64,000 nucleotides of DNA, taken from a virus. The notes under the pieces were generated by a model. The model worked only from the letters and a program-made list of their open reading frames with translations, did not search any database and was not told the origin of the DNA. The DNA lies in the IMG/VR virus record IMGVR_UViG_3300021962_000041, positions 50,869 to 114,868 of that record. One strand, written 5' to 3'. Below, one piece after another: positions 47,634-55,909 of this stretch (the first letter of the stretch is position 1; each line of letters opens with the position of its first letter). The position numbers and the translations under genes are program-made.

Positions 47634-49298
47634 TTATGCGAGACTTGAAAATGCGCTATTAGAATAAGAAGATCCACCACCTCCTGATGATCTTCTTTCC
47701 ATCGCTACTGGAGTGGGAAGTGGAACACCAACTGGTTGTACAAAAGTCTGAGTTACTAAGTATGTAGTTTGATTTTGTAAAGAAGATTGCTCATTACCAC
47801 GCTCTAAGGTATTCAATAAATCACCAACACTTTTGGCAACTGGATCTACTTTAGATTTTGCTGCTTTGATTTTTTTCTTTACTTCTGCAGATGGACCACC
47901 ACTTAAGTGCCCAAGAAGATATTGTTGACCATTCTCATCCATAATAATTGTAACATTTCCATAACCAGCATTTTCACCAGCTGAATATTCAACAAATTTT
48001 AACCCTGGTCCTAAAGTAATTGGTGTTCCGCTGGGGGCTGGAAAATCAAATCCTCTATGTCCTCTGCCTGCACCAAGACCATCACCTTGAGACATCTTAG
48101 AAAGAGGAACTCCCCCAATGAAAACACCATTCAAAATACTTTTTGAAAGTGCTCTACCACCACGATCACCCCATCCATTACCCCATTCAATATGTAAGTG
48201 TGGTCCAGTGGATCTTCCCGTACTTCCAATTCTACCAATAATACTACCAGGATCTACTGAAACCGACGTTGATGGACTGAGCGGATCCTGTTGTCCAGAT
48301 CTTTGTGCTCCTGGATCCATGTTGTCAAGTGGTTTACCTTTATCTTTTTTATCTAATCCAAAAAATTGCAAGAATTTGGAGAAAGACTGATTGACCTGCT
48401 CAAAGGTATCATTGATACCTTCTTTATCTGATAGAAGTTGTGCGTTTATTTTTGTTCCGAAAGAAACAGTTTGAAAATTATCAAAAGAATCTACACTTTC
48501 AATTGCCTTTGATCCCATCGGAGTTGCAGTAACTCCTCTAAATCCACCAGAAATTGTTGCTTTATTTGTGCCAGTATTTTTTGCCTTAACAGTTCCACCT
48601 TTTGCAAGTCCTTGTCGTTTTTGAGATGGTGCTTGTTGTGGCGATGGTGTTGGTGTTGGAGAGGAAGAGGATGCTGATGGTGTTGGAGATGGGGATGGAG
48701 TTGTGGCAGGATACATTGATCCTGGAGCACCAGGAGTACCAAAACCTTTATTAGGAACTGGATCTTGAGTTGGATTTAAAAATTTGTTCCAAATATTATA
48801 AGCAGCTTCTGCAATTGCAATCGTCCTATCAATCTCTTTTGCAACATATCTTCTTTCATTATCAATAGCAGACATTACACCTTGAGGATATTCTGTAACT
48901 AACCATATCATTCCCATAATTCCTTCACCAATTATTTTCAACGTCGTCTTCGTAATCTTAATTAATAAAGCATTATCAGAGAAAAATCTCTTAAGTTTAT
49001 CAATTATCTGTGGAAGATTATTAATAAACAACCCAAGAAGAACTAGACCAAAAAATTCTTTAACTTTGTCGAAAAATCCTAGTGGACCTGCAAGAACTCT
49101 TGACTTAACACTTTCAATTGTTTTTCCAATCCCAGACTCTACTTTTTGTTCTTTTTCTTTTCGCTTTTCCTGATTTTCAAAAGTAGCAGTTAATCTATTT
49201 TCTTCAACTCTAAGTTTACGCAGTTCTTTATTATAACCAACCAATGAATTTCTAAGATTGGTTGCATTAATTTTTAATCTCGTTACTTGTGCTTCCAT
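47634..49298 (-). CDS. Tail protein with circularly permuted M23-type peptidase domain
   Basis: A 554-residue protein. An N-terminal coiled coil (1-60) and hydrophobic segment (about 80-95) are followed by a Ser/Pro/Thr-rich linker (198-226). From 350 to 470 all M23 peptidase motifs appear: GRIGSTGRSTGPHLHIEWG (HLH 367-369), GHRGFDFPAPSGTPI (His414 and Asp418) and YLLGHLSG (His464). In normal M23 enzymes the HxxxD segment comes first and HLH last, so the domain is permuted. It could cut host peptidoglycan cross-links during DNA entry. It is next to the hub genes and the tape-measure-like gene. Confidence 0.8.
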   Translation of the reverse strand: MEAQVTRLKINATNLRNSLVGYNKELRKLRVEENRLTATFENQEKRKEKEQKVESGIGKTIESVKSRVLAGPLGFFDKVKEFFGLVLLGLFINNLPQIIDKLKRFFSDNALLIKITKTTLKIIGEGIMGMIWLVTEYPQGVMSAIDNERRYVAKEIDRTIAIAEAAYNIWNKFLNPTQDPVPNKGFGTPGAPGSMYPATTPSPSPTPSASSSSPTPTPSPQQAPSQKRQGLAKGGTVKAKNTGTNKATISGGFRGVTATPMGSKAIESVDSFDNFQTVSFGTKINAQLLSDKEGINDTFEQVNQSFSKFLQFFGLDKKDKGKPLDNMDPGAQRSGQQDPLSPSTSVSVDPGSIIGRIGSTGRSTGPHLHIEWGNGWGDRGGRALSKSILNGVFIGGVPLSKMSQGDGLGAGRGHRGFDFPAPSGTPITLGPGLKFVEYSAGENAGYGNVTIIMDENGQQYLLGHLSGGPSAEVKKKIKAAKSKVDPVAKSVGDLLNTLERGNEQSSLQNQTTYLVTQTFVQPVGVPLPTPVAMERRSSGGGGSSYSNSAFSSLA

Positions 49299-49301
49299 AT
49301 C

Positions 49302-51140
49302 TTATACAAAAATCCCCAACATTTCTGGTACAATTTGCATATATGGATTTGCCATATTTACACTGGAGACACTTGGTTCTTCGGTTTCGACTCCACCTGC
49401 AGAACTATATTGTGGCACTCCAGACATTGGTAAAGTTTGTGATGGTAAGTTTATTGGTACTATTGATGATGTTGCACTTCTCTTAACTGGTTTTTTAATG
49501 TCAGAATGCAATACAAGTTCTGGAGAAACCATATTTGAACTCATTCTTCTCTCTGCATATCCACCATTTCCAATTTCTTTAGTTTTTTTAACCCTCTCTT
49601 CATTAACAAACTTATCTAATTGACCTTTAAATGTTGTTAGTTGAGATGCAAGAATTTGTAATGCACTCTTCATTGTTGAGTTTGATACTACCAGTCCCCC
49701 AACAGCATCAGAAAAAGTAGTCCACATTCTTCCAGCATTATTATTAATATCTTTCAAAAGTGGTCTGAACATCATTGCTGCTGATGCACGAATAACTTCT
49801 TCACCAGGAGCAAGCATCGCTGGAACACTATCAACACTTCCGGATCCAGTGCCACCAACAGTTCCACCTAATGATCTTTTAATTGGTGGTTTTTGGCTTT
49901 TTGCCTGTTTTACAATATCAATGATATTTTGAGCACTAGATGGTCTTGCAGATCCAGATCGTAATGCTGACAATTCTTCAGCAGAAATTGTTGTTTTATT
50001 TCCTTTTAAATTTGTAAATGTTCTAATACCAGAAGCTGCAGCGGGAGCTGGGACTGGTTTCGGTGCTCTCAATCCAAATTTTGCTAATCCAGAAGAAATT
50101 GTAGCAAGAATTCCACCTCCTATAGCACCAGTTGCAACTAATCCACCCAATAAAGGTAGAAGAACAAATGCTCCAAAATTTGTTACATCATCTGATGTTC
50201 GACCTTGATCCGTTGGTATTGGGTATATCTTTCCATCAGACCCACGATAAAAACGTTGTGGATCAAATTGACGAGTAGGTTGATCACCAGGTTTTGGTTG
50301 ATTGACTGGTGTTGGTCTAGGAATTAAACCAAATAGTGGAGAAAAAACTCTGGTTCTTTTTAAAGTTTCTGCAAGTTTTTCAGCAGCGGCACCGCCAATA
50401 TCTTTTATGCAATTTAAAACTGGACCACATCCCCCGCCAGCAGGTCCGCCTCCACTAGGTCCACCTCCCCCTCCTGGTTTTCCACCACCTGGTGGTTTTG
50501 GTGGTCTCTTAAATAAATCAACTATTCGTTTTAAAGCACTAACAATCTTTAAGAGTTTATATGCACCATAAAGAGCAAGTAACTCTTTCCAATGATTTGC
50601 AACAAATTTGAAGAATTTAGCAAGTTTTTGTTGATTTGCTGGATTTTCTAACCACTTGAACGCATTATTAACCAATAATCCAGTTACAATAATACTAAAG
50701 AAATCTAATATTTTTTGGAATATACTTTTTGCTGGAGTTGTTACAACATCAAAGGTTCTCATAATACCAGAACCAAATTGTCTTACAGACTCAATAGCTT
50801 TTTCTTTTGCTCCTGCCCTTTCTCTTGTTACTCTTATTTTGCTAGCTCGTAATGCCTGTCTCTTTTCAGTGATCCTATTTGCAAAATCAAGAGATAATTG
50901 TTTTTGAATTTCGATTAGAATTCTATTTGTTTCTTGTAAATTTACATCCAGACTCGTTGTTTCTGCCTTTAGACTAGATCCTACAGTACCACGTCTTTCG
51001 CCGCCAATAAAACTAAAAGTAGATCTTTTTAATCTTGGACTAGAAGCAATCTGAGCACCAGTCATTACCGAAGAAGATATGTTTCTTCTACTTAACTTTG
51101 GTAATGATGGTGCTCTGTAAATCTGGTTGTTAAATTCCAC
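49302..51140 (-). CDS. Tape-measure-like tail protein
   Basis: A 612-residue protein with a GTG start at 51140 (no ATG nearby). Features include long helical and coiled-coil stretches (65-125), a hydrophobic segment (140-165), a proline/glycine-rich hinge (210-240) and a tail-tape signature near 430-455 (GTVGGTGSGSVDSVPAMLAP, followed by GEEVIRASAAMMF). T4 gp29 is 590 residues, close to this length. It lies behind gp26 and the small partner ORF, the usual place of a tape measure. It overlaps that ORF by 11 bases. Confidence 0.7.
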   Translation of the reverse strand: MEFNNQIYRAPSLPKLSRRNISSSVMTGAQIASSPRLKRSTFSFIGGERRGTVGSSLKAETTSLDVNLQETNRILIEIQKQLSLDFANRITEKRQALRASKIRVTRERAGAKEKAIESVRQFGSGIMRTFDVVTTPAKSIFQKILDFFSIIVTGLLVNNAFKWLENPANQQKLAKFFKFVANHWKELLALYGAYKLLKIVSALKRIVDLFKRPPKPPGGGKPGGGGGPSGGGPAGGGCGPVLNCIKDIGGAAAEKLAETLKRTRVFSPLFGLIPRPTPVNQPKPGDQPTRQFDPQRFYRGSDGKIYPIPTDQGRTSDDVTNFGAFVLLPLLGGLVATGAIGGGILATISSGLAKFGLRAPKPVPAPAAASGIRTFTNLKGNKTTISAEELSALRSGSARPSSAQNIIDIVKQAKSQKPPIKRSLGGTVGGTGSGSVDSVPAMLAPGEEVIRASAAMMFRPLLKDINNNAGRMWTTFSDAVGGLVVSNSTMKSALQILASQLTTFKGQLDKFVNEERVKKTKEIGNGGYAERRMSSNMVSPELVLHSDIKKPVKRSATSSIVPINLPSQTLPMSGVPQYSSAGGVETEEPSVSSVNMANPYMQIVPEMLGIFV

Positions 51141-51309
51141 TAGATTGCTGTGCCTTTAAGTTTTCTTCTTCAATATAATCTTGAAGCAGACCAATATAAA
51201 CTTCACGCTCCCAAGGCATCATATTTTCAATCTCTGTCAATGAATATTTATGATGCTGCATGAGGGCAAAATTAATTTGGTAGTATGACTCAAGACTAGT
51301 ATGAGCCAT
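51130..51309 (-). CDS. Small partner ORF of gp26 (possible frameshift extension)
   Basis: A 59-residue protein starting MAHTSLESYYQINFALMQHH. It is helical, with MPWEREVYIGLLQDYIEEEN. The reading frame is open through the end of gp26 back to the slippery site at 51318-51324 in the -1 frame, so it can be made alone or as the C-terminal part of a gp26 fusion. In lambda-type phages the G and GT proteins arise in this way and act as chaperones for the tape measure, which here is the next gene. It may correspond to T4 gp51. Confidence 0.75.
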   Translation of the reverse strand: MAHTSLESYYQINFALMQHHKYSLTEIENMMPWEREVYIGLLQDYIEEENLKAQQSSGI

Positions 51310-51311
51310 AC

Positions 51312-52034
51312 TTAGATGAAAAAAGCAGCTAGACCCTCCAGGACAACTTCACTTTCAACTTTTGTGTTTGGATTCTTAACCTTAATTGTATGAGCAAGTT
51401 TAGGCATTGTCACAAAGAAGTTTTCAATTTCTTTAAACTGCTTTGTGTTCATTTGTTCCACAAACTCTTCAAGTTCTTCTTTGCTGCAATCCGATGCACT
51501 CCAAGATTCCTCTTGATCATAAACAGTATCAATACAAGAAATAATTAAGGAAAGTGATTTATCAACATCAGTATTCTCTTCAGATACCTCGAAATTATTT
51601 TCAACAAATTGCTCAAGTGATGGATACTTAAGTTTCATTGAAAGGTTATCATCAAGTTTAATAATGTTAGTGTGTGCAGGATCTTTCTGAACTTTAATAG
51701 TATCAATCGCAATTTCTTCCTTCACTTGTGTTGTACCATCATCAGGACAAGTTACATTAACCTCAACAGTTTCACCAACTGACTTGGCACGAACATTAAG
51801 GAAGAGATATTCAATATCAAATGTTGATAGTTCTGACACTTTTACAGTTTTAGTCAGAATACAATCTGATAAGATTTGAACAATTGCGCTTGAAATTTGT
51901 TTCGTATCTTCGGATTCTAGTGCAATTAAAAGAATTTTTTCTTCTCTAACTAGGAAAGGACGATATCTAATTTTTTTCCCAGTAGAAGGCAATTCCAACT
52001 CATATGTTGGAGTATTAATTTTTGGTAAAGGCAT
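51312..52034 (-). CDS. 26: Baseplate hub/tail assembly protein gp26
   Basis: A 240-residue protein MPLPKINTPTYELELPSTGK... of the T4 gp26 (T4_baseplate) family, involved in assembly of the baseplate hub. The C-terminal end is LEGLAAFFI, with the codons for AFF forming the slippery sequence. It is behind a TATTTAG late box (52062-52068) and followed by the partner ORF and the tape-measure-like gene. Confidence 0.8.
   Translation of the reverse strand: MPLPKINTPTYELELPSTGKKIRYRPFLVREEKILLIALESEDTKQISSAIVQILSDCILTKTVKVSELSTFDIEYLFLNVRAKSVGETVEVNVTCPDDGTTQVKEEIAIDTIKVQKDPAHTNIIKLDDNLSMKLKYPSLEQFVENNFEVSEENTDVDKSLSLIISCIDTVYDQEESWSASDCSKEELEEFVEQMNTKQFKEIENFFVTMPKLAHTIKVKNPNTKVESEVVLEGLAAFFI
51318..51324 (-). 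promoter_or_regulatory. Candidate -1 frameshift slippery site T_TTT_TTC
   Basis: The gp26 codons GCT TTT TTC ATC TAA contain the canonical heptamer T TTT TTC in frame. A -1 slip gives CAT CTA AGT ATG GCT CAT, entering the frame of the 51130-51309 ORF just before its ATG. No stop intervenes. Any downstream pseudoknot was not folded. Confidence 0.7.
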
Positions 52035-54679: not shown

Positions 54680-55330
54680 ATGGCAAACTATTTTTCTTAT
54701 CTACCAGATTTAGAGTATCAATCATTTTTAAGCAATAAAACTTCTGATAGAGATTATGTTTTAGTCAAAAATCTCTTTAGAAGAGTGAAACTTCGTGATG
54801 ATATATACAATTCTCTAACAGCATTTACAAAATATCAAGTTCCTGATGGATCTCGTCCAGATACAGTTGCAGAAGAACTTTATGGTGATGCTAATTATGA
54901 TTGGGTTGTCTTAATCACTGCAAATATTATACATCTAAGAGACGAATGGCCTCTTTCAAATTCACAACTTTATAATTATGCAGAAAACAAGTACGGAACA
55001 ACTTTGACTGATGTTAAATTTTACGAAACTAAAGAAGTACGAGATTCTTTAAATAGACTTATTTTACCTGCTGGTAAGATTGTATCTTCAAATTTTACTA
55101 TTCCAAATCCATCAAATCCAAATGCTAATTTGAATCCAGTAAATGCTGTTTCAAATTACGAATACGAGACTAGATTAAATGATGCAAAAAGAAACGTTTA
55201 TGTACTGAAACCAATTTATCTGCAGCAGTTCTTACTTGACATGAGAACAGTGATGGATTATCAAGAGTCTTCACAATACGTCAGTGAAAAACTTATTCGT
55301 ACTGAGAACACCAGAATCACTATGCCATAA
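54680..55330 (+). CDS. 53: Baseplate wedge gp53
   Basis: A 216-residue protein: FSYLPDLEYQSFLSNKTSDR near the start, PDTVAEELYGDANYDWVVLI (a LysM-like module) and HLRDEWPLSNSQLYNYAENK. T4 gp53 links the wedges of the baseplate. Its last 60 bases overlap the 3' end of the convergent gene at 55271. A perfect hairpin ATAAGAGTT/AACTCTTAT lies at its stop. Confidence 0.85.
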   Translation: MANYFSYLPDLEYQSFLSNKTSDRDYVLVKNLFRRVKLRDDIYNSLTAFTKYQVPDGSRPDTVAEELYGDANYDWVVLITANIIHLRDEWPLSNSQLYNYAENKYGTTLTDVKFYETKEVRDSLNRLILPAGKIVSSNFTIPNPSNPNANLNPVNAVSNYEYETRLNDAKRNVYVLKPIYLQQFLLDMRTVMDYQESSQYVSEKLIRTENTRITMP

Positions 55331-55909
55331 GAGTTCTAAACTCTTATCAAAGATCATCACATATCGGTGTTTGCGGGAGCGTTCTTTCCATTCTCCTGCA
55401 GCACCTTTAACTTTGCCTCTAGAGTGTTTAGTTCCGTCTGCATAGTAGAAATCTTTCTTTGGGTCTGAAAGTCCGCAATATTTAAAATTACAAGCGCGAT
55501 AGATTGTACCATGATGGAAATCACTATCAGCGTAAGAGATGATTGCCTTAACTTTTGTATCCTTCCGTAACTGTCTAATCGCTCTTGAAACAAACCAAGA
55601 AGTGATATTATATTCGGTTCCCTGGGTTTCAGGGTGGATGCAAAGTCGTGAAAGTTCAAATAGTCCTTCTTGCTCATTCCGTTCTAGTCCAAATGCTCCT
55701 TGTGCAATTTCAGGAACAGGGAGTCCTGTAAATACACAGACTCCCTGAATACCGCCAATATTCAACGGGCAAAAGTCATTACCCTTATAAAGACCGTAAT
55801 TGTATCCTGATCTAAATCCTTTTGAAAAGTCTTTAAGATAATGAAACCGCAGAAGTAACTCTGCGGCTTCGGATTTACTTACACGATCAATGTAGTAATC
55901 TCTTTTCAA
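55271..55909 (-). CDS. Mom-like acyltransferase (DNA modification)
   Basis: A 212-residue protein with a GNAT-like pattern: RFHYLKDFSKGFRSGYNYGL, GGIQGVCVFTGLPVP, FELSRLCIHPETQGTEYNIT, VKAIISYADSDFHHGTIYRA. This resembles phage Mu Mom, which converts adenine to N6-carbamoylmethyladenine. The start is a TTG at 55909 overlapping the gp32 stop (TTGA); no other start is in frame. It is convergent with gp53, with 60 bases of overlap. The Mom assignment is from recall and motif order. Confidence 0.65.
   Translation of the reverse strand: MKRDYYIDRVSKSEAAELLLRFHYLKDFSKGFRSGYNYGLYKGNDFCPLNIGGIQGVCVFTGLPVPEIAQGAFGLERNEQEGLFELSRLCIHPETQGTEYNITSWFVSRAIRQLRKDTKVKAIISYADSDFHHGTIYRACNFKYCGLSDPKKDFYYADGTKHSRGKVKGAAGEWKERSRKHRYVMIFDKSLELLWHSDSGVLSTNKFFTDVL

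Follow-up and report, generated by a model that had tools for sequence, protein, structure and literature searches.

A conserved −1 frameshift signal at the end of gp26 in an uncultured T4-like phage, very probably yielding two tail assembly chaperones from one gene

Introduction

A conserved frameshift in the tail genes of double-stranded DNA phages, of the lambda gpG/gpGT type, was reportedly described by Xu, Hendrix and Duda in 2004. The abstract of the 2022 paper by Vladimirov et al. is likewise said to describe frameshifting as seemingly conserved in several T4-like groups, with T4 using genes 26 and 51. That study (Vladimirov, Gautam & Davidson 2022, Virology 566:9-15) is reported to have identified the tail assembly chaperones (TACs) of T4-like phages. 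In later papers that cite it, a pairing of one short gene with one long, fused gene is described for some T4-like phages (PMC10274946), and poly-T slippery sequences are known in TAC-N genes of T4-like phages (PMC12846349). A 2016 review had called the tail-gene shift widely conserved 'except T4' (PMC5009743). T4 gp26 and gp51 are listed as hub assembly chaperones; gp51 is required in assembly and absent from the final particle, and genetic data put gp26 in the hub despite the chaperone listing (PMC3004832). Sullivan et al. 2010 remarked that gp51 is missing in Aeh1 and, in cyanophages, is about 20% as long as usual (PMC3037559).

We analysed a 64,000-nucleotide stretch of an uncultured virus (IMG/VR record IMGVR_UViG_3300021962_000041, positions 50,869 to 114,868; hereafter the window), in which a −1 frameshift at the end of gp26 had been proposed. 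The initial annotation was unaware of any such description for T4-type gp26 and its partner; a citing paper credits the 2022 study with poly-T slip sites in these phages, and the core claim was by those accounts already known. What we add is a measure of how widely the signal is conserved, evidence for lost start codons, and a three-part signal. The Shine-Dalgarno-like element, the hairpins and the start-codon loss may or may not feature in Vladimirov et al. 2022; the three-part signal and an exception in the Ackermannviridae may be new.

Results

The gene at 51312..52034 on the minus strand encodes a 240-aa protein that matches PF12322 (T4_baseplate) over its whole length in a profile search (E 8e-73; 245 bits against a cut-off of 24.5) and phrog_150 (baseplate hub) with E 7e-80. 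Related phage records label the homologue gp26, and we assign it as the short tail assembly chaperone, TAC-N. It is the sole PF12322 gene found in the 114,868-base virus record, which may be a fragment. Near its 3' end, in the gp26 phase, lies the slippery heptamer T_TTT_TTC (51318..51324, minus strand), within a junction that reads GAG GGT CTA GCT GCT TTT TTC ATC TAA GT ATG GCT CAT. The −1 reading after the heptamer continues CAT CTA AGT ATG GCT CAT, and its first stop is the TAA at 51132-51130; the open stretch begins 34 nt before the gp26 stop codon and reaches 182 nt past that codon's start. As at canonical −1 sites, an X_XXY_YYZ heptamer is in phase and the −1 ORF is open across it. The sequence bears out the initial reading that this heptamer would carry ribosomes stop-free into the next ORF. 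The placement of the heptamer two codons before the stop was right as to location, with the refinement that a single sense codon (ATC) separates the two, and the anticipated fusion of roughly 34 kDa agrees with the translated product of 301 aa.

The −1 extension (TAC-C; 'gp51' in cultured cyanophages) spans 51130..51318 on the minus strand and comprises 62 codons plus TAA. Its PHROG matches are phrog_634 ('baseplate hub assembly catalyst', E 5e-28) and the C-terminal part of phrog_150, the gp26 family itself (E 4e-6); the homology of both gp26 and the −1 tail is thus directly observed. The end of the extension is overlapped by a 612-aa tape-measure-like gene (49302..51140, minus strand), tentatively assigned through phrog_25241 (tail length tape measure; E 3e-9, with only 80 aa aligned). 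Its protein gave no tblastn match in annotated phages; in phiM12, a gene near the corresponding locus is annotated as tape-measure-like. An M23 peptidase domain (PF01551, E 3e-12) is encoded by the gene that follows (47634-49298, minus strand), which also matches tail tape-measure and endolysin PHROGs. This T4-like genome also has, at 55271-55909 (minus strand), a gene whose product belongs to the Mom family (PF25680, E 4e-26) of DNA-modification proteins familiar from phage Mu.

We assembled loci from IMG/VR relatives, S-SM2 and P-SSM2, and then from scans that added relatives of MED4-213, phiM12, T4, Kuttervirus and KVP40. All of the closest IMG/VR relatives, together with S-SM2 and P-SSM2, keep [NNT] TTT TTC and an open −1 ORF. 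Removal of duplicates left 226 non-redundant loci, with the T4, Kuttervirus and Vibrio D506 groups set aside. In 226/226, the heptamer T_TTT_TT[C/A/T] is in frame and the −1 ORF is uninterrupted there; this is a count of loci that share descent and not of independent events. The initial annotation had proposed comparing the heptamer and the −1 phase across relatives, and both are retained throughout this set. T_TTT_TTC accounts for 188 loci, T_TTT_TTA for 26 and T_TTT_TTT for 12; the last base is never G. The 26 TTA loci replace Phe with Leu and nonetheless retain a slippery heptamer, which in their case is that of HIV-1 as well (PMC5009743). Within the T_TTT_TTA group (viral contigs among loci L140-L173), a perfect 7-bp hairpin often follows. 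The distance from heptamer to stop varies from 0 to 24 nt while the heptamer stays constant. Control Phe-Phe pairs elsewhere in the same genes are encoded TTT TTC in 17/227 cases, and the base preceding the codon pair, always T at the slip site, is T at 45/227 of these control sites. The signal and its invariance are therefore observed directly, and the slippery codons are, by this comparison, fixed beyond amino-acid need.

Two further elements flank the heptamer. Upstream, a Shine-Dalgarno-like GGAGGG (51334..51339, minus strand) ends 9 nt before it and is a candidate 5' stimulator. Predicted pairing to the 16S rRNA 3' end over the 226 loci is strongest 15 nt before the heptamer start, with a mean of −6.9 kcal/mol against a regional average of −0.3. 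Glu codons at this site are GAG in 136/194 cases among the same loci, compared with 29% elsewhere. The spacing of stimulatory Shine-Dalgarno elements at −1 sites has been stated as 9-14 nt (PMC5009743).

Downstream, folding predicts an RNA hairpin just 3' of the gp26 stop (51285..51309, minus strand), a candidate 3' stimulator that holds the ATG of the gp51-like ORF. Its arms are 51309-51302 and 51292-51285, with a predicted −8.3 kcal/mol and a z of −2.2; a shorter alternative, GTATG-GCT-CATAC, was rejected because the longer stem is more stable. The window thus carries both types of candidate stimulator. Predicted folding over the 226 loci peaks just downstream, at +12, and in 146 representatives averages −5.6 kcal/mol, against −2.4 in shuffles that preserve the codons of the −1 protein (z −22, a value that overstates independence because the representatives are related). 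The strongest predicted folding is seen in MED4-213-like phages and the T_TTT_TTA clade. The stem of the latter clade is 88.5% paired, compared with at most 48% when slid, and its covariation comprises 11 cells with both sides changed, a level reached in 0/500 shuffles. Hairpin arms are clade-specific: GCCCTC/GAGGGC in one case, GGCTCTC/GAGAGCC with compensatory changes in another, and ATGGCTCA/TGAGTCAT in a third. Some loci fold to 0 kcal/mol downstream of the heptamer, so the hairpin is not universal.

GenBank records annotate the downstream ORF as a separate small gene, and in the window the ATG three bases 3' of the gp26 stop could start a separate 59-aa protein. By this account ribosomes would reinitiate past the gp26 stop at an ATG belonging to gp51, and the T run would be incidental or a protein-level FF motif. 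We judge this account very improbable. No ATG, GTG or TTG occurs in the first 10 codons of the −1 ORF in 79/226 loci (48/146 representatives), which makes fusion the natural route to the tail, and of the 84 representatives that do have an ATG, 65 show no Shine-Dalgarno-like element ahead of it. Translation of the tail from a start of its own therefore cannot be the rule. The window's own ATG is enclosed in the predicted hairpin. The fixation of the slip-site codons and the full fusion in T4 gp51, described below, likewise argue against a separate gene.

Slippage of RNA polymerase on the T run could also join the frames, through mRNAs of altered length, and a run of six T is indeed present. Such a run is generally regarded as short for polymerase slippage, and conservation here obeys the codon-phased X_XXY_YYZ rule, with the Shine-Dalgarno-like element conserved at the spacing of −1 ribosomal shifts. 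Some bacterial genes are known to undergo transcriptional slippage (PMC5009743); for this locus we hold it to be a still more remote explanation. Least credible of all is coincidence, a frequent heptamer turning up by chance because the genome is A+T-rich. The bare TTTTTTC appears 28 times in the window, about chance level (34.8 expected; 89 of 100 shuffles as high), and the significance of the heptamer for that reason rests on comparison across relatives; it is the in-phase conservation in every locus that refutes coincidence. From the comparative sequence data, ribosomal −1 frameshifting at this locus very probably lets a single gene supply two tail assembly chaperones; the slippage, its efficiency, the action of the stimulators and the chaperone role are what we infer.

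Comparison with T4 places the −1 tail in a familiar protein. T4 gp26 and T4 gp51 both match PF12322, and T4 gp51 consists of a PF12322 protein plus a gp51-like tail, matching phrog_150 nearly end to end; the −1 tail of the window is homologous to its C-terminus (39% over 36 aa, E 3e-6). T4 gp51 is therefore a permanent fusion of the parts that other T4-like phages would split by frameshift, and T4 gp26 is the short form. Where a full-length gp51 exists among the Tevenvirinae and 44RR genomes examined, the heptamer is absent from gene 26 (T4 has TTC TTT); T4 and its closest relatives have two genes in place of one frameshift. The heptamer and −1-frame tail are present in Aeh1, PX29, Cronobacter S13 and VmeM-32; where Aeh1, S13 and VmeM-32 carry the tail, their records have a gap in the annotation. 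Both oddities of gp51, short in cyanophages and missing in Aeh1, are explained by the gp51-like tail being the −1 extension of gp26. Frameshift genes, gp26 and gp51 form three cleanly separated classes in an unrooted tree in which long branches meet, so we claim no ancestral state.

The exception lies in the Ackermannviridae and related Vibrio phages, whose junctions contain no X_XXY_YYZ heptamer although the −1 tail ORF is kept (Kuttervirus, Miltonvirus, Campanilevirus and Vibrio phages; loci L262-L279, L294-L297, L300 and L088). Examples are GAA ATT TTC ATT TAA, CAG GTT TTC ATC TGA and CTT TTC AAG TAATG. Some of these loci have a TAATG overlap, at which reinitiation is possible; most Kuttervirus and Miltonvirus loci have no ATG there.

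Discussion

We propose that the majority of ribosomes would terminate at the gp26 stop and release the 240-aa TAC-N. In a minority, the two tRNA-Phe that decode UUU UUC in the P and A sites would slip back one base on U_UUU_UUC, and the slipped ribosomes would continue in the −1 frame to produce the long form, TAC-NC, of 301 aa with its gp51-like domain. Pairing of GGAGGG with 16S rRNA and the hairpin just past the stop would be probable helpers of the slip. By analogy with lambda gpG/gpGT, TAC-N and TAC-NC together would coat the putative tape measure protein encoded by the downstream gene and bring in tail-tube subunits at the proper ratio. AlphaFold models gp26 with confidence (pLDDT 87.7); the best PDB match of the model is the HK97 tail assembly chaperone 2OB9, at an E of 0.76, below significance. 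The gp51 model had no significant match in the PDB and did not repeat the HK97 chaperone match; a profile search of solved-structure sequences with gp26 returned nothing relevant.

With the heptamer and the Shine-Dalgarno-like element nearly fixed, we give an even chance to the view that a dnaX-like three-part cassette is present in T4-like phages other than the T4 clade. In this view each clade's own hairpin could tune the chaperone ratio, and that of the window's clade would bury the ATG, leaving fusion as the sole way to make the tail. T4-like phages very probably have two solutions to one need, a single frameshifted gene or, as in T4, two genes. Many records of these phages could have their gene models corrected, and the cassette is an abundant and testable one in cyanobacterial and other marine phages.

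Among known systems, the T4-like gp26/gp51 chaperones, as credited to Vladimirov et al. 2022 in citing papers, are the same proteins in the same short and long forms as those predicted for the window, which differs in coming from an uncultured relative. The comparative data strongly support the initial proposal that gp26 is joined to the next ORF by a −1 frameshift of the lambda G/GT kind, and the lambda arrangement of a short and a long form is matched, at the level of sequence, by the signal and open −1 ORF in all 226 loci. We found no sequence homology between lambda gpG/gpGT and the window locus, and the heptamers differ, T_TTT_TTC in the window and G_GGA_AAG in lambda. E. coli dnaX is another gene, with an A_AAA_AAG heptamer and a shift that yields the shorter product, but it has the same three-part order as the window: an upstream Shine-Dalgarno-like element, the heptamer and a downstream stem-loop.
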